From: Xanthomonas sp. DAR 35659
Lineage (GTDB): Bacteria; Pseudomonadota; Gammaproteobacteria; Xanthomonadales; Xanthomonadaceae
Direction of reading: 5' to 3'
Length of the DNA stretch: 64,000 nucleotides
Assembly: GCF_041242975.1 (NCBI RefSeq)
Contig: NZ_CP162488.1
Location: 672,001-736,000 of the forward strand
How positions within the stretch are numbered: the first letter of the stretch is position 1; each line of letters opens with the position of its first letter. The position numbers and the translations under genes are program-made. The notes under the pieces are model-generated. The model was not told the DNA's origin and did no database searches. It worked only from the letters and a program-made list of their open reading frames with translations. Positions 30,505 to 38,520 of this stretch are shown piece after piece.

Positions 30505-31539
30505 CTATTTCCAAAAGAACGCGGGATAGCCGTCCAGGTCGCCGCGCAGGTGCCGCGCCAGTAGTTGGGCCTGGACGAACGGCAGCAAGCCGATGTCGAC
30601 CTTCTCGCCGAGGAAGGCGTGCTGCAGTTGCTCGCGCTTGCGCTCCTGGTAGGCGACCAGCACGGTCTTGCGGGCATCGTCCTTGAGCAGGACGGCGCCG
30701 TTGTCGAAGACCTGGAAGTCGCGTTCATTCAATTGCCGGCGGTTGATCAGCGACAGCGCCAGGCGTTCGCCGAGCAGGGGGCGGAATTCTTCGGCCAGAT
30801 CCAGGGCAAGGCTCGGACGTCCGGGCCGGTCGCGATGAAGAAAACCCACGGCCGGATCCAATCCGACGGACTCCAAGGCGGAGCGGCAGTCGTGGGTGAG
30901 CAGGGTATAGAGGAAGGAAAGTAGGGCGTTGAAGGCGTCGCGGGGCGGACGGCGATTGCGTCCGCCGAAGCGCAGCAGTGGCGCGTCGGCACGCACCAGT
31001 TGGCCGAACACCCCGAAGTAGGATTGCGCCGCCTCGCCTTCGAGGCCGCGCAGGATGTCCACATCGGTCTCGATCAGGATGCGCTGCGGGATGCGCTTAA
31101 GCCGCTTCAATGCGTGCTGGAACGCGGCTACGTCGGTGAGGCGGTCGCCGTGGTCGCGCCAGCCGCGCGCCAGGACCGCGCGTTGGTTGTGGATCTTGCC
31201 GGCCAGCAGGTGGCGGACGATGGAGGCACAACCCAATGGATCGTCGCTGCGCCGGTATTGCGCGCGCCGTAGCAGTACGTTGCCTGACACGGGGCCTTCG
31301 ACCCGTGCCAGGAAGCGACCCTGTGGCGTCAGATAGCAGATGCTGATGCCTTGTTCGCTGCAGAAACCGAGCAGCTGCGGCGATACCGCGACGCGACCGA
31401 TGCAGACCAGGCTTTCGAGCATGTGCACCGGCAGGCGGGCGCGTTCCTGGCGCTCCACCTCCATGACGATGTTCGCGCCGTCCTTGCGCAGCCAGGCGCC
31501 GTCGGTGGTGGCATACAGTGTGTTGAGTTGGCGGCGCAT
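30505..31539 (-). CDS. cas1: CRISPR-associated integrase Cas1 (type I-C)
   Basis: 344 residues. It has an N-terminal beta-sandwich (LNTLYATTDGAWLRKDG) and a helical catalytic lobe with likely metal ligands Glu167 (GLEGEAAQSYF), His235 (VGFLHRDRPG) and Asp247 (LALDLAEEFRP). It integrates new spacers at the leader end together with Cas2. The start at 31539 was chosen because it follows the cas4 stop by two bases; the longer open frame upstream overlaps cas4. Confidence 0.96.
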   Translation of the reverse strand: MRRQLNTLYATTDGAWLRKDGANIVMEVERQERARLPVHMLESLVCIGRVAVSPQLLGFCSEQGISICYLTPQGRFLARVEGPVSGNVLLRRAQYRRSDDPLGCASIVRHLLAGKIHNQRAVLARGWRDHGDRLTDVAAFQHALKRLKRIPQRILIETDVDILRGLEGEAAQSYFGVFGQLVRADAPLLRFGGRNRRPPRDAFNALLSFLYTLLTHDCRSALESVGLDPAVGFLHRDRPGRPSLALDLAEEFRPLLGERLALSLINRRQLNERDFQVFDNGAVLLKDDARKTVLVAYQERKREQLQHAFLGEKVDIGLLPFVQAQLLARHLRGDLDGYPAFFWK

Positions 31540-31541
31540 CC

Positions 31542-32174
31542 TCAGTCCTCGTCGGCGTCGAGTTGGCGGCGCACCCACTGGTCGACGCTGCCGCGATCGA
31601 GCAGGCGCGGCTGGCACAAGTCGATCAGGGAGCAGGCATCGCAGCGCTTGGCCTCGTAGCGCGCGGCGGGTGTGGCGCCGTCGTGCAGCATGGCGCGCGT
31701 GTCGGCGATGGTGTTCAGGGTGAGCGCACGCAATGCCGCATCGAAGGCAACCTCCTTGCGACGGCGGGTCTGTCCGTAGAACAGCGCGCCGGTGGGTACG
31801 GCACGTCTCATCATATGTTCCAGGCATAGCGCCTGCGCGCACAACTGGACCTCGTCGGCACGGTGCGCTTTTGGGCGCCCGCGCTTGTACTCCACCGGGA
31901 AGGCCACCTCGCCGTCGCCATCGCGATGGAACTCCACCACGTCGGCCTTGCCGGTGATGCCCAACTCCAGCGCCAGCAGTGGCATCGCGGTAACGGTACG
32001 CACGCCGCGCCGGCGCTCGGCCTGCGGCGCATCGGCGCGCTGATGCAGCAAGCGCCCTTCGGCGGTCTGTCGGTTCTCCGCCCACTGCTGCTCCACATGG
32101 ATCAGCGCGCACTGGCGCGGGCAATACAGGTAGTGCTGCAGGGCGGAGAGCGGGATCAGGTCGGCGTCGTCCAT
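31542..32174 (-). CDS. cas4: CRISPR-associated exonuclease Cas4 (type I-C)
   Basis: 210 residues. RecB-like nuclease with an iron-sulfur cluster: Cys18 (YLYCPRQC) and the C-terminal trio in KRCDACSLIDLC are the likely cluster ligands. GKADVVEFH and FPVEYKRG hold the catalytic Asp, Glu and Lys. Cas4 trims prespacers and helps choose those next to a correct PAM. It lies between cas7 and cas1, the standard I-C position. Confidence 0.95.
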   Translation of the reverse strand: MDDADLIPLSALQHYLYCPRQCALIHVEQQWAENRQTAEGRLLHQRADAPQAERRRGVRTVTAMPLLALELGITGKADVVEFHRDGDGEVAFPVEYKRGRPKAHRADEVQLCAQALCLEHMMRRAVPTGALFYGQTRRRKEVAFDAALRALTLNTIADTRAMLHDGATPAARYEAKRCDACSLIDLCQPRLLDRGSVDQWVRRQLDADED

Positions 32175-32193
32175 GTCCCGCTCTCCGCATCCT

Positions 32194-33060
32194 TCAGAAC
32201 AGTTCTTCGACGCTGACGCCCGCCGGCAGGGCGCGATCGATCGCGACCCGGTAGTCGGCGAAGCTGCGTGCCGGCCCGGCGTCCGCCTCGGCGACGCGCT
32301 CGACCGTCACCTTGTCGAACAACACGTGCGCCGGGGCATTGCCCATCGGGTGCTCGTGCTTGAACACGATCAGCTTGCGCGCCGACATCTCGCCGCGTGC
32401 GGCGGAACGGTCGTGCTCGAAGAGGTTGGTCAAGGCGCGCCACAGCAGTTGCAGGTCGTCCTCGGAGAAGCCCGTGCGTTCGGCCAGCTTGGCGGAGATG
32501 AAGCCGTGTGCGCGATACAGGCCGTAGGGCAGGATGTGCTTGCGGCCCATGGTGCGCTCTTTCTCAAGGTCCTTCTCGTTGGTGACCGCCACGCGGGTGA
32601 TCGACACTTCCAGCGGCAGTACCGGCTCCACCGAACTGGCGAAGGCCAGTTGCACGGGGCCACGGACCTGGCCGGAGTTGACTTCGGTGGTCATCACCGC
32701 GCCGAAGGTGCGCACGTCGAAGAAGTTCTTGCACATCCACGACGTCAATTCGCGTGCCTTGGCTTCGTCCTTGGGCAGCTTCTTGGCCTCGTGTTCGATG
32801 CCCAGCGCGGCATAGGCCTGCTTGTGCTGGTTGTTCAACACCGACTTCTCCTGCATGTAGATCGCGTAGCCAGGTTGGCCCTCCTGCTCCAGTGCCACGT
32901 AGTTGCGGATCTTGCGCTTGAGCGCCACGTCGGTGACCAGGCCGCGGTTGGTTTCCGGATCCAGGCGCGGCAGGTTGCCGGCGTCGGGGTCGCCGTTGGG
33001 ATTGCCGTTGGTGACGTCGAACAGGTAGACGAACTCGTAGCGGTTGGCGATGGCGCTCAT
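32194..33060 (-). CDS. cas7: Type I-C Cascade backbone subunit Cas7c (Csd2)
   Basis: 288 residues. The RRM-like Cas7 signature is at the N-terminus ([20 protein letters not shown]), followed by [19 protein letters not shown] and the [11 protein letters not shown] strand. Seven copies normally coat the crRNA and set the six-nucleotide periodicity in which every sixth base is flipped out of the guide-target duplex. Its ATG overlaps the cas8c stop by four bases, so the two are translationally coupled. Confidence 0.96.
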
Positions 33061-33464
33061 GCGGTCTCTCCTTCGGAAACGGTGTCGGGGGCGTCCTGGC
33101 CGTCGTTGCGGGCGAAGCGCGCCTGGGTCTGGTGGTAGTAGCCGATCGCGAAGCGGCCTTGCTCCTGGATCGGCAGGCTGCGTGGGAAGCTGGGCGGTAA
33201 GGCATCGACGATCTGGCCGATCTCCTTTTCCAGGTTCACCGCCAGGCCGACCTTCTCTTTACGCAGCTTGCCGAAATGGTTTTGCGCGCTGCGTAGCAGC
33301 ACAGGGAAGATGCTGGCCGGCGTCGCCGAGGCGGCGCCGTAGTAGCGGTCGCGGATGGTGGCGTTGATGCGGTCGCCGAGCGCGGCGCGTTGCAGATTCT
33401 CCAGCGACGCGAACAGCCGTCCCAGCAGATAGCCGGGATCGGTATTGCCTGTATCGAGACTCAT
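33057..33464 (-). CDS. cas11c: Cas11c small subunit from an internal start in cas8c
   Basis: The internal ATG at 33464 is preceded on the minus strand by AAAGGAA eight bases upstream, a ribosome site that has no other purpose inside cas8c. It would yield a 135-residue, mostly helical protein beginning [17 protein letters not shown]. Type I-C systems are known to make their small subunit this way, and it stabilises the R-loop. The sequence evidence is the ribosome site, the position in the last fifth of cas8c, and the size. Confidence 0.8.
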
Positions 33465-34898
33465 GGGTGGTTCCTTTGGGTCGGTGGACAGTCCTTGTTG
33501 CCTGCGCAAGCGCGCGTCGCGTGCCAGGACCGCCCGGCACAGCGCGATGCGTAATGGGGTGAGTTGCCCGTCGGCGCGGAAGCGTATGACGATGCTGCCG
33601 AGCAGGCTTTGTGGATAGCGGATGCCGGTGAGGATCGCCCTTGTCATTTCACCGGCGAGCAAGGGCGAAACGTCTTCGGCCTTGGGCTTGCCATGCTCGC
33701 CGTAGACGTGAGCGGTCTGCAGCGCAAGGTAGGCGGGCGTCGGTGGGCGCTTCCACGCCGGCGGTTCCAACGCGAGGTCGTCGTAGTGATCGGCCAGGCG
33801 TTTGGCGAAGCCAGCCAGCGACTGTGTCTCCCAGAAGCGGATGGACAGGCGCGAGGCGTTCGGCGCTAATCCGAGCACGAAGATGCGGGCGTCGTCGTCC
33901 AGCGAGTCATCCAGATCGCGCAACGGCCGCGCCTGGCGGACCTGCTTCATGACCAGTTCCAGCCGCCGGGTGGCTTGACCGTCGGCGATTGCGGGGTCGT
34001 CGGCGTCGCTGCCGCGCATGAAATCAGCGAAGATGTCCTCGGCATTCTGCGCCTGCATTGCCGTCCCGGCCTGTGCCCAGAACACCACGGTGGTATCGCC
34101 GATCTGCACGCGCTGGCGGTTGTGAGGGTCGCGCCGCAGCAGATGGTTGAGGGCGGTGCTGTAGGCGAATGCCGCTTGTTCGGAAACGGGAGCGTTCTCG
34201 CCTTGCTGCTTGCCGTAGGAGGTGAAGGCATCGAGATTGAAGGAGACGATGGAGGCGCCGGAACTCTGCGCACCGTTCACGCCCTTGATCGCCGGATGCA
34301 GCCGCGCCAGCGGTGCTATCGTGCCGCTGACCAGACACAGGCCGCTGACGCCATCGGCACCCTGGCCTTGTTGCCGGTCCCAGGCCGCGCGTGCAGCGGG
34401 ACGCTCGTGTAGAGGTCCCGGGTCGCTCTCCAGCTTGAAGGCCAGGTTGGTATCCAGTAGCGCCTCACCGTGCGGGGCGAACGCAGGATGAGCGGCGTAT
34501 TGCTCAGGCGACCATGTCGCCAGGAACGCCAGCAGCGCCAGCAGCCCGGGATCGCCGCTGCCGGCCAGGGCCTGCTGGTGCATCGCCTTGAACGCGGCAT
34601 GTTCCTGCTCGCTGCGCTTGCTGCTGGCGCTGACGCCCAGGACGTAGCTGGTCTTGTCCCACAGGAAGTTGGACTTGATACCAGCGGTGCGCTTTTCCGG
34701 CTGCGGGACGCGCATGGCCTTGGCGAGGCGCTTCTTGCCCTCGACGCGATGCTCGTCGTGGACGGAAACGATGCTGCCGTCGGCGGCCAGTACCACGGTG
34801 TAGCCGATGTTCTGCTGGCTGTAGCCTGGTGCGGCGATGCCGGACTCTGGATCGTCCAGCAGCCGTTGGTAATAGTCGGCGAGGGCGGACAGGATCAT
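33057..34898 (-). CDS. cas8c: Type I-C Cascade large subunit Cas8c (Csd1)
   Basis: 613 residues from the ATG at 34898, whose first bases overlap the cas5 stop (ATGA). It begins [14 protein letters not shown], the standard Csd1 start; other familiar blocks are [17 protein letters not shown] and [21 protein letters not shown]. Cas8c recognises the PAM and recruits Cas3. The C-terminal 135 residues also form the separate Cas11c small subunit. The long open frame upstream of 34898 overlaps cas5 and was rejected. Confidence 0.95.
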
Positions 34899-35569
34899 GC
34901 GCGCACCCCGCCGTCCTGCGGCGGCGGCACCTCGACCAGCCCATCGACCATGTGCGCGCGAAAGAAGCGCGGGGTCATGCCGTCGACGAAGTCGATGTCG
35001 TGCATCATCCAGCCCAGGTCGCGTTCGCCGGACAAGGCCGGGTCGCTGGCTGGTGGCGTGTCGTCGTCGCCGAGCAGGGCGAAGCTGGCGGGAAACTCCC
35101 GGGTGCCAAGGCATGGTGCCTGGAAGCACTGCCCGCGCCGTGCGCGGCGGTTGAAGATGTCCAGGTGCTTGCCGACGTTGTCGTCGGGGCCAGCTTTGTC
35201 GGTCAACTCGAAATGCGCGGCGATGACGTAACCGACCTCGCGCAGCACGGTGGCGGCACGCTGTTGCCGATCCTCATCGACATAATTGACCAGTTCGTCG
35301 GTACGTCCGGCCTTGATCGCCTTGCCGATACTGGCGGCAGACAGCTTGCTGCCGACTTCGTTGCGGCGGATCGACTCGAAGCGGATCGGCTTGAGCACCT
35401 GGATGCTGTCCACCACCCAGCGGATCGCCGGCTTCCAGTGGATCGCTTCGAGGATGCCGCGCGCGGCCGATGGCGTGATGATGTCGTAGGACACCCGCTC
35501 CACCTTCATTTCCGGACGCGTGAACAGCGCCCGCTCGCCCCAGATATGGAGCCTGACTCCGTAACTCAT
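34895..35569 (-). CDS. cas5c: Type I-C Cas5c, Cascade subunit and crRNA-processing endoribonuclease
   Basis: 224 residues from the ATG at 35569, which has AGGAACAAGG directly upstream; the longer frame to 35668 has no such site. The N-terminus SYGVRLHIWGERALFTRPEMKVERVSYDIITPSAARGILEAI is standard Cas5d/Cas5c (quoted from position 2 to 43; key residues are the Trp, the Arg-Pro-Glu-Met block and the Thr-Pro-Ser-Ala-Ala-Arg-Gly loop). In type I-C, Cas5 replaces Cas6 and cuts the repeat below its stem, leaving an 11-nucleotide 5' handle. It is the first gene after the regulatory gap behind cas3. Confidence 0.95.
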   Translation of the reverse strand: MSYGVRLHIWGERALFTRPEMKVERVSYDIITPSAARGILEAIHWKPAIRWVVDSIQVLKPIRFESIRRNEVGSKLSAASIGKAIKAGRTDELVNYVDEDRQQRAATVLREVGYVIAAHFELTDKAGPDDNVGKHLDIFNRRARRGQCFQAPCLGTREFPASFALLGDDDTPPASDPALSGERDLGWMMHDIDFVDGMTPRFFRAHMVDGLVEVPPPQDGGVRA

Positions 35570-35643
35570 CCTTGTTCCTCTGTCAGACGCGATTGACTGA
35601 ATCTCTGCTCTCAACGTGTCAATCGATGACACCTGGTTGTAAT

Positions 35644-35741
35644 GCTCCCTTGCCGAATAGACCGGCAAGGGAGCGGCTGCAGAGCCCTGCGGGTTGGTTT
35701 GTCAGTATTTCAATCCACACTTCTTTAATCAGAGAAGCGAC
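35644..35741 (-). ncRNA. CreA/CreR-like guide: degenerate CRISPR repeat plus spacer-like segment
   Basis: On the minus strand, 35741-35707 is a repeat look-alike. It starts GTCGC, has a five-pair stem CTTCT/AGAAG with a changed sequence, and ends GTGTGGATTGAAAT. This keeps both ends of the true repeat (GTCGC and GTGGATTGAAA), including ten of the eleven handle bases. The next 32 bases (35706-35675) act as a spacer beginning ACTGACAAACCAACCC. A perfect 12-pair hairpin follows at 35674-35644 (GCTCCCTTGCCG / CGGCAAGGGAGC), in the place of a second repeat. Stand-alone, diverged repeat-spacer units inside cas operons are known as CreA (antitoxin of CreTA) or CreR (autorepressor). The identity here is inferred; the structure is seen directly. 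Confidence 0.72.
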
Positions 35742-35822
35742 TTTGAGTTGCCGAAACCTGCAACTGTCGTTAGCGTGTTCCGGCACTCGGGGGCGCAAAC
35801 CACCCCGCGAGTGCCAGAACAA

Positions 35823-35858
35823 TCAAGCTCTTCTGATCAAATGGTGGCTAACCATCAT
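35823..35858 (-). CDS. 11-codon mini-ORF with tandem AGA codons
   Basis: Reads M-M-V-S-H-H-L-I-R-R-A-stop, with codons nine and ten both AGA. AGGAGG ends two bases before the first ATG and five before the second. AGA is the rarest arginine codon in such GC-rich genomes. The product is too short to be a normal protein, and the arrangement fits a ribosome- and tRNA-trapping element instead. It could also be a leader peptide for the cas5 transcript. Confidence 0.5.
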   Translation of the reverse strand: MMVSHHLIRRA

Positions 35859-35916
35859 TGCCTCCTGCCGATTCCGGCATTGGGCCTATCCCGCGAAGGA
35901 GAGGTTCTGGTTGCTG

Positions 35917-35956
35917 ACAACGGCCGCCGCTGCTACGGCGGCCGTTGTTTTTTTTT
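35917..35956 (+). terminator. Strong intrinsic terminator on the plus strand in the cas3-cas5 gap
   Basis: ACAACGGCCGCCG (35917-35929) pairs perfectly with CGGCGGCCGTTGT (35936-35948) around a six-base loop, followed by a run of nine T to 35956. It faces opposite to the cas genes, so it must end a plus-strand RNA arising in the gap, or protect the cas3 end from antisense transcription. Read on the minus strand it is a stable hairpin preceded by A9. Confidence 0.8.
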
Positions 35957-35986
35957 ACGCTCCTCTCAGATGGATTGCAAGACATC

Positions 35987-36018
35987 AGAATACCCTTCGG
36001 GTTGGTTTTTCAGTAAAG
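35987..36018 (-). promoter_or_regulatory. Predicted Cascade target and promoter-like segment downstream of cas3
   Basis: On the minus strand 36014-35993 reads ACTGAAAAACCAACCCGAAGGG. It equals the first 22 bases of the spacer-like segment at 35706-35685 except at positions 6 and 18, the flipped-out positions of type I guides. The preceding trinucleotide is TTT, close to the TTC PAM of type I-C. The site overlaps a weak promoter-like pair (TTTACT and TATTCT, 19 bases apart) and starts 37 bases after the cas3 stop. Binding there would block minus-strand transcription toward the mini-ORF and cas5c. Confidence 0.68.
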
Positions 36019-36050: not shown

Positions 36051-38342
36051 TCATGTTACTAGTTCATTGGATGCTATGAACTGCGGATCCTCCCAATGCA
36101 ATCCGAACCGAGCGTCGTACAGCCTCGAGTTGCGCAGACAGACAAACTGCTCGCCATAGCGCTCAGGCGCAATCGGCGCAATCGCGGACGCCTGCCATAG
36201 CGCTCTGTAAGCCTGCTCGGGCACCTGTACCAGCCACGGTTGCAGGTGACGCGCGGCACCTGCTACGCCGACCCGGTCCGCGTGTTCCAGTTGGCGCAGC
36301 ACTTCGTTCACGTCCGCTACTTCCCGCTCCGCACCATTTCGGTCGGTCGCATAGGGCGCATACGGCACGATCAGCGGGCGCATGGTCGTCTGGATCATCC
36401 GGAACTTCTGAGCCAGTGTGTCGAATGGCAGGTCGTCCAGATCGGCGGTGCGCAGTTGCGTCAAGATCGCTTCGTCGTCCAACAGGTTGTCGCCCAAGCG
36501 CCGGTACAGTCTCTGGAAATAGGCGTGGACGGCCTCCATCGCCAGTAGGTCGTCGCCGTGCATGCGCTCGACCTCGCGGAAGACTTCGGTGAAGACTTTC
36601 AGTTCCTGTGGCGGCTGCCAGTTCACGGGGGCGAACACCAGCACGTCGCTGGTATCCGTCGGACGCAGACCTTCGCGATTGCACCGCCCTGCCGCTTGCG
36701 CCACCGAGTCCAGACCGGCTTCCGCGCGCAGGACGGTCGGGAAGTCCACGTCCACGCCGGCTTCAATCAAGCTGGTTGCGACCAGTCGGCATGGCCTGGC
36801 CGCTTTCAGGTCTTCGCGTATCTGCGCCAACGCCGCACCGCGGTGTCGGGCGTGCATCAACGTGGTCAGGTGGCGCGCGCCGGGTTGTTCGGCGATGGCG
36901 TCGAACAGGGCGCGGGCGTGTCGGCGGTTGTTGACGATGCACAGCACTTGTGCGCGCCGCCGCAGTTCCTCCGCCAGCGCGTCGTCCTCCAGCGCGCCGG
37001 CATGGCGCACCCGCACGCGACGCAGTTGCGCATACAGCGCATCCGGCTCCGTCATCAGTTCCTCGACGTGTTCCAGGCCGCCAGGGAAGCCTTGGTCCTG
37101 GCGTAGCGCGGGCTGGGTGGCGGTACACAGCACCGGGCTGACCCGATAGTTGCGCGCCAGTTCGTCCAGCAATGCCACGCAGGGACGCAGCAGCGTCTGC
37201 GGCAGGGTCTGCGCCTCGTCCAGGATCACCACGCTGCCGGCGATGTTGTGCAGCTTTCGGCAGCGCGACGGGCGGTCGGCGAACAGGCTTTCGAAGAACT
37301 GTACCGACGTGGTGACCACGATCGGCGCGTCCCAGTTTTCCATCGCCAGCTTGCGCTTGTCGATCGACTGCGGTGCCTTGGCCGGATCGTCGAAGAACGC
37401 GCTGTGGTGTTCCAGCACGACGTCGTCGCGGTCCTGAATGCGGAGGGCATGGCGGAACACCGCGGCGGTCTGATCGACGATGCTGGTGAACGGGATCACG
37501 TAGATCACCCGCCGCAAGCCGTGCGCGATGGCGTGGTCCAGCGCGAACGCCAGCGAGGCCAGGGTCTTGCCGCCGCCGGTGGGCACGGTGAACGAGAACA
37601 GGCCGGTACGCGCGTGCGCCTTGGCCCGCGCTTGGCGCAGGATGGTCGCGCGGATCGGATTGATGCCGCCATCGCTGGGCAGGCCGGACAGATGGGTGTC
37701 GAGCCGTTCGCGCAGTTCTTCCAATGTCGGCCGTGTGCCGGCCTGCTCCGCGCGTGTCCCGCGTCCTTCCACGCGCCGGTAGAAGTCGTCTGTATCGACG
37801 AAATCCGCATCGACCAGGCAGGAGAACAGCATGCGTGCCAGAACCGTCATCTGGAAGGCCCGGCGCTCGGTGCGCGGGTGGCCGCTGAATCCCGTCGGGA
37901 GTTCCAGCTTGGCGGGCAGCAGGATCTCCCGTTCCCAGGCCGGCAGCAAGGGCGGCAGAACCTGCGCGCGGTAGTCCTCCGACAGCCGCTCCTGCAAAGA
38001 GGAGCGTGATGTCAGATCATCGCGGCGTCCGTCGGCCAGCCCCGCGTGGTGCCCTGCGATGCCATAGGCCAGCAGCGTTCCGCCACTGCCATACAGTTCG
38101 CGGGCTTTCCGCGCACCCCAGGTCGCATGGTCCACCCTGGTCGGGTCGCCATCCAGGCGTGCCTGGAAGTTCTGGGTGTACTTGCCCAGATCGTGCAACT
38201 GCCCAGCCACGCGCGCCATCACCTGGCCGCCGAACGCCTGGGCATGGATCGCGGCCCGTTCGCCGACGCCATTCAGATGCTCGGCCAGCCGCTGCCAATC
38301 GCCACGATCCCGACGTTCGGTCGAGTGCGCGTAGAAGTCCAC
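36051..38342 (-). CDS. cas3: CRISPR-associated helicase-nuclease Cas3 (type I-C)
   Basis: 763 residues from a GTG at 38342 (VDFYAHSTERRDRGDW), preferred because AGGGGGA precedes it; an ATG six codons upstream has its ribosome-like sequence too close. It has an N-terminal HD nuclease with GQLHDLGKYT, then a superfamily 2 helicase with Walker A TVPTGGGKTLAS, the DEAD-like motif VILDEAQ, CTATQPAL, and C-terminal motifs SLIEAGVDVDFP and QAAGRCNREG. Cas3 is recruited by Cas8c at a full R-loop and degrades the target strand. It is the first cas gene, separated from cas5c by the unusual 480-bp RNA-rich gap. Confidence 0.95.
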   Translation of the reverse strand: MDFYAHSTERRDRGDWQRLAEHLNGVGERAAIHAQAFGGQVMARVAGQLHDLGKYTQNFQARLDGDPTRVDHATWGARKARELYGSGGTLLAYGIAGHHAGLADGRRDDLTSRSSLQERLSEDYRAQVLPPLLPAWEREILLPAKLELPTGFSGHPRTERRAFQMTVLARMLFSCLVDADFVDTDDFYRRVEGRGTRAEQAGTRPTLEELRERLDTHLSGLPSDGGINPIRATILRQARAKAHARTGLFSFTVPTGGGKTLASLAFALDHAIAHGLRRVIYVIPFTSIVDQTAAVFRHALRIQDRDDVVLEHHSAFFDDPAKAPQSIDKRKLAMENWDAPIVVTTSVQFFESLFADRPSRCRKLHNIAGSVVILDEAQTLPQTLLRPCVALLDELARNYRVSPVLCTATQPALRQDQGFPGGLEHVEELMTEPDALYAQLRRVRVRHAGALEDDALAEELRRRAQVLCIVNNRRHARALFDAIAEQPGARHLTTLMHARHRGAALAQIREDLKAARPCRLVATSLIEAGVDVDFPTVLRAEAGLDSVAQAAGRCNREGLRPTDTSDVLVFAPVNWQPPQELKVFTEVFREVERMHGDDLLAMEAVHAYFQRLYRRLGDNLLDDEAILTQLRTADLDDLPFDTLAQKFRMIQTTMRPLIVPYAPYATDRNGAEREVADVNEVLRQLEHADRVGVAGAARHLQPWLVQVPEQAYRALWQASAIAPIAPERYGEQFVCLRNSRLYDARFGLHWEDPQFIASNELVT

Positions 38343-38520
38343 GTTGTCCCCCTGTTCCATTCCTTATGGAAAGCGCGCCGGCGCTGCCAGCGGCGCGGCC
38401 GAGCATACGCTGCTCGCGCGCCGGATGTGGAGACAAATCGCGGCAGGCAGCCTGGCGTTGCGTATCGCCGTATTCAAGTCCCTGGCGGCGCTGCCACGAG
38501 CCCGCAGTGATGGCCGGATC

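Follow-up and report, generated by a model that had tools for sequence, protein, structure and literature searches.

What is held in the 481-nt gap that separates cas3 from cas5 in the type I-C CRISPR-Cas (clustered regularly interspaced short palindromic repeats and associated genes) locus of Xanthomonas sp. DAR 35659, and why do two short pieces of this gap match each other almost base for base? The locus lies in a 64,000-nt stretch of contig NZ_CP162488.1 (assembly GCF_041242975.1, positions 672,001 to 736,000), which is called the window here. In rising coordinates, the window shows a large array (~24.3-30.0 kb), an open reading frame (ORF) for Cas1, then cas7, cas8c and cas5 on the minus strand, followed by the gap and cas3. 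Probably, the gap is a CreTA-type module, that is, a CRISPR-regulated toxin-antitoxin addiction module, sitting in a type I-C locus.

A guide and its target in one gap

The two pieces, a guide and its target, lie 0.3 kb apart and are identical at 20 of 22 positions, with mismatches at positions 6 and 18. A TTT triplet occupies the slot of the protospacer adjacent motif (PAM) next to the target. A first-pass annotation, made from the letters of the window, had pointed out this pair and had taken it for a complete match wherever a guide base pairs. It was recovered exactly as described: positions 1-5, 7-11 and 13-17 are matched at 15/15, and the seed among them (1-5 and 7-11) at 10/10. The pair is also alone in the genome. 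A search of all 5,415,250 bases that ignored positions 6 and 18 and tolerated as many as 3 mismatches found no third site besides the guide and the target, and a reversed-pattern control over the same genome gave 0 matches.

Directly before the guide stands GTGGATTGAAAT, which shares 11 of 12 bases with the 3' end of the I-C repeat in this window, taken in the sense of the CRISPR RNA (crRNA). It closes a 35-nt degenerate repeat, psiR1, that starts with GTCGC, like the array repeat in the crRNA sense. As in CreTA modules, a degenerate repeat is thus present outside the array and near the cas genes. The fold of psiR1 is no better than that of shuffled sequences (z about -0.9 to -1.1). If the guide is picked by this handle alone and the PAM is ignored, its best partner in the gap is the same site, at 15/15.

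The array spacers were considered as a source of the guide, and the best of 69 was identical at only 15 of 34 positions. Two array spacers have seed matches in the gap, where the PAM slots read AAC and GGG, and an array-spacer origin was therefore rejected. A search of Rfam gave 0 matches at gathering scores.

Covariation and mismatch rhythm among Cas5 relatives

Searched as DNA, the gap matched its own genome alone among 60 (own included), and no plasmid record. As there were no DNA-level relatives of the gap, loci were gathered via Cas5. The best 80 of 572 confirmed relatives from one scan of a genome collection were joined by 56 loci from the genus, family, order and class, giving 136. The 56 comprise near-full-length Cas5 only; 15 partial or weak matches (L103-L105, L118-L125, L147, L152-L154) and hits without a locus were omitted. 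Of the 136, 5 lacked an ORF upstream and 8 had duplicate gaps; removing them left 123. These are the nearest relatives of this Cas5, and how often the module occurs is to be read for them, not as a survey of all I-C. Targets were sought within the gaps; beyond them, only the window's own guide was followed, in its own genome.

The length of the cas3-cas5 gap is bimodal across the 123 loci, with 75 gaps shorter than 200 nt, 46 of 200-1000 nt and 2 longer. Of the 46 long gaps, 36 have a 5' handle, defined as 9 or more of 12 bases including GAAA; of the 75 short ones, 5 do. The guides were chosen by this handle alone, and a partner was counted if it was flanked by TTC or TTT and agreed with the guide at no fewer than 8 of 10 seed positions. 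Such a partner was found in the own gap for 31/36 guides, while swapping guides and gaps gave one in 47/1620 pairings. With at least 9 of 10 seed positions, the figures were 25/36 and 6/1620. Ignoring the PAM altogether, partners matched at 12 or more of 15 positions were seen for 27/36 guides versus 36/1620 swaps, and the PAM slots of those 27 partners read TTC in 22 cases, TTT in 4 and AAA in 1. TTT is thus a variant of the family. The guides themselves differ widely among the loci; guide and target therefore change together, as the first-pass annotation had predicted for relatives. Over all 22 positions, the window pair has the fewest mismatches of the 31 (2), followed by L033 (3). In L093, the target is present in two tandem TTC-flanked copies for one guide (the second seen by eye), both, again by eye, within palindromes around CCCGAAGGG.

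The same annotation had expected free drift at positions 6, 12 and 18, where the guide base would be flipped out. As positions 1-5 and 7-11 had been selected for, this rhythm was tested at positions outside the selection, in 30 pairs (the 31 less L097, a near-copy of L069). Mismatches at positions 12 to 18 numbered 21, 10, 5, 10, 4, 8 and 19, so that positions 12 and 18 together were mismatched in 40/60 cases and positions 13-17 in 37/150 (p=1.9e-8). Relatedness was controlled by thinning alone: with the guides thinned by similarity from 31 to 25, the values were 31/50 and 32/125 (p=8e-6). Position 6 was mismatched in 25/30 pairs, a rate indistinguishable from the 75% expected where a base is unconstrained (p=0.40). 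The expected drift is therefore seen at all three positions.

Beyond position 18 the mismatches, at 19 to 24, were 17, 22, 9, 22, 25 and 21, and matching is mostly over after about 17-18 positions. Judged from these alignments, the loss of identity is consistent with Cascade binding without a full R-loop. The 25-30 natural pairs offer evolutionary evidence that guide bases 6, 12 and 18 are not read by I-C Cascade and that it can regulate with about 17 positions engaged. Position 21 departs from its neighbours, being mismatched in just 9/30 pairs against 22/30 at each of 20 and 22.

The mini-ORF, its candidate promoter and the presumed antitoxin

Between the target and the guide of the window, the only ORF that passes a Shine-Dalgarno (SD) filter is a mini-ORF, so the protein toxin that marks CrePA is not found there. 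This mini-ORF (Table 1) has 11 codons from the first ATG and 10 from the second. Together with the stem-loop behind it (35870-35765), it folds at -49.4 kcal/mol (z -4.79), and 0 of 200 shuffles were as low. The pattern of an SD, ATG, AGAAGA, NNN and TGA has a single occurrence in the genome. In the 24 long ORFs of the window, some possibly in a wrong frame, AGA makes up 23 of 16,080 codons and is the third rarest sense codon, and AGA-AGA occurs 0 times. Run on loci that together include all 54 tRNA-like places, ARAGORN gives one gene for tRNA-Arg(UCU) and one for tRNA-Arg(CCU). For the two lowest-scoring of these, neighbours at 399982-400121, ARAGORN gives one gene with an ambiguous anticodon.

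The sequence marks of CreT are all there: a strong SD, a mini-ORF with consecutive rare codons of the AGA/AUA class, and a stem-loop. In the CreT of Haloarcula hispanica, the strong SD, an efficient start codon, a pair of adjacent AGA codons and the stem-loop are all reported as critical in passages of PMC8501985. The first-pass annotation had missed this CreT-like mini-ORF, the presumed object of the regulation; its regulatory reading of guide and target stands, with support that is comparative.

Similar cargo is found in relatives behind guides that differ. After its SD, Lysobacter pythonis (L008) has a mini-ORF with AGA ATA that aligns with that of the window, Luteibacter anthropi (L021) has AGA AGA GCA TGA, and Aquabacterium (L025) has AGG AGA. 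A GC-rich hairpin like the one at the 5' end of the presumed creT transcript also appears in the folds of the matching stretch of L008, L021, L025, L093 and L096. The candidate -35 box agrees in position with TTGACA boxes of L008, L021 and L025. In the window, the best promoter-like pair begins 34 nt away from base 1 of the protospacer; the same distance is 43 nt in L008, 44 in L021, 40 in L025, 42 in L093 (from the second target) and 55 in L096. Another promoter, TTTACT / TATTCT, was noticed by eye as bracketing the target, and was given a lower rank than the promoter whose position agrees with those of the relatives.

Downstream of the guide, the 3' part of psiR2, GAGCATTACAAC, is like the handle at 8 of 12 bases. 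The stem and GCATTACAAC at 35677-35636 could be a second degenerate repeat, which many though not all CreTA modules have, and could equally be a terminator.

From what is seen directly in the DNA (guide, target, PAM, repeat remnants, mini-ORF, hairpins, covariation and the flipped-base mismatch pattern), we infer a course of transcription, processing, binding, repression, tRNA sequestration and toxicity. By analogy with CreTA, Cascade carrying a crRNA-like RNA would block the creT promoter. The creT product would be a short RNA with a strong SD, an 11-codon ORF containing AGA AGA and a stable stem-loop; if made, it would sequester tRNA-Arg(UCU), which is scarce, and growth would stop. The antitoxin, creA, would be a crRNA-like RNA from the degenerate repeats, presumably cut by Cas5d. 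Loaded with it, Cascade would settle on the target next to TTT, either inside the creT promoter or a little upstream of it, engaging positions 1-5, 7-11 and 13-17 (here on to 22). Thus bound, it would adjoin the -35 box and block creT transcription. In the absence of a full R-loop, Cas3 presumably does not cut. Once Cascade is lost or inhibited, creT would be freed.

Subtype I-C lacks a cas6 gene. In CreTA, the nuclease that matures CreA is the one that cuts the repeats, Cas6; in I-C, Cas5d is expected to be the enzyme that processes crRNA and CreA. Passages of PMC10651486 ascribe I-C crRNA processing to Cas5. As to repression, a promoter with a TTC PAM was repressed ~700-fold in E. coli by the I-C Cascade of Xanthomonas albilineans, according to passages of PMC10810201.

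Table 1. Features of the cas3-cas5 gap and of the flanking cas genes (positions in the window)
Feature	Position	Strand	Details
Guide (matched part of pseudo-spacer)	35685..35706	-	ACTGACAAACCAACCCGCAGGG, read 35706 down to 35685
Target (pseudo-protospacer)	35993..36014	-	ACTGAAAAACCAACCCGAAGGG, read 36014 down to 35993; 20/22 identical to guide
PAM slot of target	36015..36017	-	TTT
Candidate creT -35 box	35975..35980	-	TTGCAA; abuts 34-nt protospacer; 8/12 sigma-70-like with -10, spacer 17 (lax scan)
Candidate creT -10 box	35952..35957	-	TAAAAA; weak, putative
5' GC hairpin of presumed creT transcript	35917..35948	-	-28.9 kcal/mol, z -6.05
Shine-Dalgarno	35861..35866	-	AGGAGG; from sequence
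Putative creT mini-ORF	35823..35858	-	ATG ATG GTT AGC CAC CAT TTG ATC AGA AGA GCT TGA
Tandem rare arginine codons	35829..35834	-	AGA AGA; inside mini-ORF
Very stable stem-loop	35777..35820	-	directly 3' of mini-ORF; from fold
psiR1, degenerate repeat 1 (presumed creA)	35707..35741	-	GTCGC at start and GTGGATTGAAA as 5' handle retained; stem swapped for another stem
psiR2, probable degenerate repeat 2, or terminator	35636..35677	-	13-bp stem, then GCATTACAAC; -27.0 kcal/mol, z -5.86
cas3	36051..38360	-	769 aa; Pfam DEAD, Cas3-like_C_2, HD; upstream neighbour, stop codon marks gap start
cas5 (Cas5d)	34895..35569	-	Pfam Cas_Cas5d 5.4e-49; first gene downstream of gap
cas8c (Csd1) ORF	33057..35129	-	Pfam Cas_Csd1 at residues 83-672
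cas7	32194..33060	-	Pfam Cas_Cas7

Rival readings, known systems and other cargo

Several observations weigh against an addiction module in the gap. The pseudo-spacer runs to about 35678, leaving 29 nt before psiR2 as against 32-37 nt in the array. The AGA pair of the window takes up codons 9-10 of 11, near the stop and not directly after the start, which is its place in H. hispanica (PMC8501985, in passages). A strict consensus scan of the region for sigma-70 promoters gave 0 sites, and the proposed creT promoter scores only 8/12. Among the relatives, 10 of the 46 long gaps have no handle and 5 of the 36 guides have no cognate target. One of the ten handle-less gaps, that of L008, does have a pair under a looser handle, with a one-base offset after position 10. 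In L004, from the window's genus, a TTC-flanked site shows positions 1-5 one base out of register with 7-11 and 13-17; the pair counted for L004 in the seed test (8/10) is probably a chance match. The cargo is not uniform either: that of L093 contains just one AGA and that of L096 no AGA at all, and some long gaps with guide and target, for example those of L028 (Azotobacter vinelandii CA), L040 and L069, show no cargo ORF in the SD-filtered list.

These cargo-less gaps would suit autorepression of the CreR type. Here, Cascade would sit on the promoter of cas5-cas8c-cas7 as a thermostat of the cas genes, and the mini-ORF would be a leader or incidental. The target does stand upstream of cas5, within the gap, and transcription from a gap promoter could continue into cas5, as it does from a strong one in H. 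hispanica (passages of PMC9458426); CreR is moreover known in I-B, I-E and V-A (passages of PMC13131331). Such a reading leaves the genome-unique ORF with its SD, tandem AGA and stem-loop unaccounted for, and AGA-type cargo recurs with other guides. In CreR, the target lies in a cas-gene promoter with no toxin between them; in the window cas5 is downstream, but the CreT-like ORF and strong hairpins intervene. CreR-type autorepression is therefore held to be unlikely here, though it is compatible with an addiction module, as one promoter could serve both. The cargo-less gaps may have a CreR-like role, or all gaps may have one in addition.

The other explanations fare worse. That the gap holds only remnants of a former CreTA, non-working in this strain, would fit the TTT in place of TTC, the lack of a consensus promoter, the offsets in L004 and L008, and the insertion sequences that truncate a small ORF in L005/L204. 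The window pair is, however, the best of 31 and complete at its 15 pairing positions, its SD, ORF and stems are intact, and decay is unlikely to spare the pairing positions yet mismatch 6 and 18; this state is considered quite improbable. A mini-array whose ordinary spacer was captured from the adjacent chromosome, with accidental self-targeting, would explain the short distance between guide and target and the repeat-like flank. It is very hard to reconcile with the degenerate repeats, with a perfect seed next to mismatches at 6 and 18, and with the different guides of relatives, which match their own gaps. As for a chance direct repeat, which the first-pass annotation had already found hard to accept, nothing was seen to speak for it, and the lack of a third site with up to 3 mismatches in 5.4 Mb and the family statistics make it next to negligible.

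The CreTA-type module thus preferred has known counterparts. CreTA has been described for I-B, I-F and I-E (passages of PMC8501985, PMC10097628 and PMC12055562), and all the modules before that of Acinetobacter surround cas6 (passages of PMC10097628). The term "I-C" is absent from the main text of PMC8501985, PMC9458426, PMC12737573 and PMC10097628; the 2021 CreTA paper in Science and the CreR paper could still mention it.

The modules of H. hispanica and H. hubeiense, which both work with the I-B system of H. hispanica, resemble, in the passages of PMC8501985, the module proposed for the window in having a crRNA-like antitoxin from degenerate repeat(s) that matches the toxin promoter in part, with a seed of 1-5 and 7-11 and positions 6 and 12 dispensable. 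The mini-ORF of H. hispanica shares the strong SD, the two AGA codons and the stem-loop. The window differs from these haloarchaeal modules in its bacterial I-C setting, in Cas5d instead of Cas6, in the cas3-cas5 gap and the 22-long match, in TTT against the TTC of H. hubeiense, in the AGA pair near the stop and in the 5' hairpin.

In Acinetobacter (I-F), CreTA fills a ~400-bp gap between cas3 and csy1. As in the window, the slot is directly downstream of cas3, and passages of PMC10097628 describe a 33-bp mini-ORF with an SD, two degenerate repeats and a PAM-flanked target. Unlike in the window, creT is divergent from creA, the subtype is I-F, and the action of CreT is described there as other than the AGA sequestration proposed here. 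The I-E module of Citrobacter rodentium also follows cas3, in a 495-bp gap before casA, and its target overlaps the UP element that precedes the toxin promoter, a geometry like that proposed for the window; its 96-bp toxin ORF has no rare codons and its creA is on the opposite strand (passages of PMC12055562). CreR shares with the window a crRNA-like RNA with a limited promoter match inside a cas locus, while it represses cas genes and generally has no toxin; the passages of PMC12737573 and PMC13131331 on it do not name I-C. CrePA follows the same logic as the window and resembles those loci, such as L003, L006, L007 and L009, whose gap holds a small membrane-like protein. Known CreP proteins typically have a KilA-N domain, according to passages of PMC12737573, and no such protein is encoded in the window locus.

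The membrane-like proteins (~53-65 aa) lie between target and guide in L003, L006, L007, L009 (also L004) and L046. By eye, they share a motif like SYSxRLxLxI...KPxxWPW...GSPWL. Pfam gave nothing above the curated cut-off for six of these gap proteins; they are possibly CreP-like protein toxins. L005 and L204, of the window's genus, carry two tandem DDE-transposase insertion sequences between a truncated membrane-like ORF and the creA-like repeat end with the guide. Other gaps hold other genes. In L029 (Kushneria aurantia) there is a HicA/HicB pair (Pfam 3.7e-23 and 5.9e-14), and in L063 a DUF2188 protein (5.4e-22), each together with a guide and its 10/10 target. In the long gaps of L132 and L139, in which the guide was not found, there is a Phd/YefM-like antitoxin ORF (Pfam, L132 only tested). 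The gap of L010/L094 is filled by a 114-codon ORF, GIY-YIG-like by eye, with no Pfam match and no guide found.

On balance, we lean towards reading the cas3-cas5 gap of I-C as a general landing place for guard genes that Cascade represses, with the leash logic conserved while the letters and the cargo are swapped; the cargo kinds, taken jointly with this reading, would be the RNA of a tRNA-draining mini-ORF, several small membrane-like proteins and the HicA/HicB pair. If this is true, CRISPR addiction would extend to the Cas6-less I-C, and the guide-target pairs would be a natural evolutionary record of the guide bases that Cascade reads. Loss of I-C, or its inhibition by an anti-CRISPR, would then free a toxin in a good part of I-C bacteria, which would bear on the persistence of I-C, on the fate of anti-CRISPRs and on attempts to delete or borrow I-C systems.

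The surrounding locus is of type I-C by its genes, with cas3, cas5d, cas8c, cas7, cas1 and I-C repeats all found in the window. The real start of cas8c is probably downstream of the listed GTG. The ORF at 30505-32190 encodes 561 aa, of which the Cas1 domain is confined to residues 225-516; the 224 residues at the N-terminus might come from a fused Cas4 or from a misplaced start.
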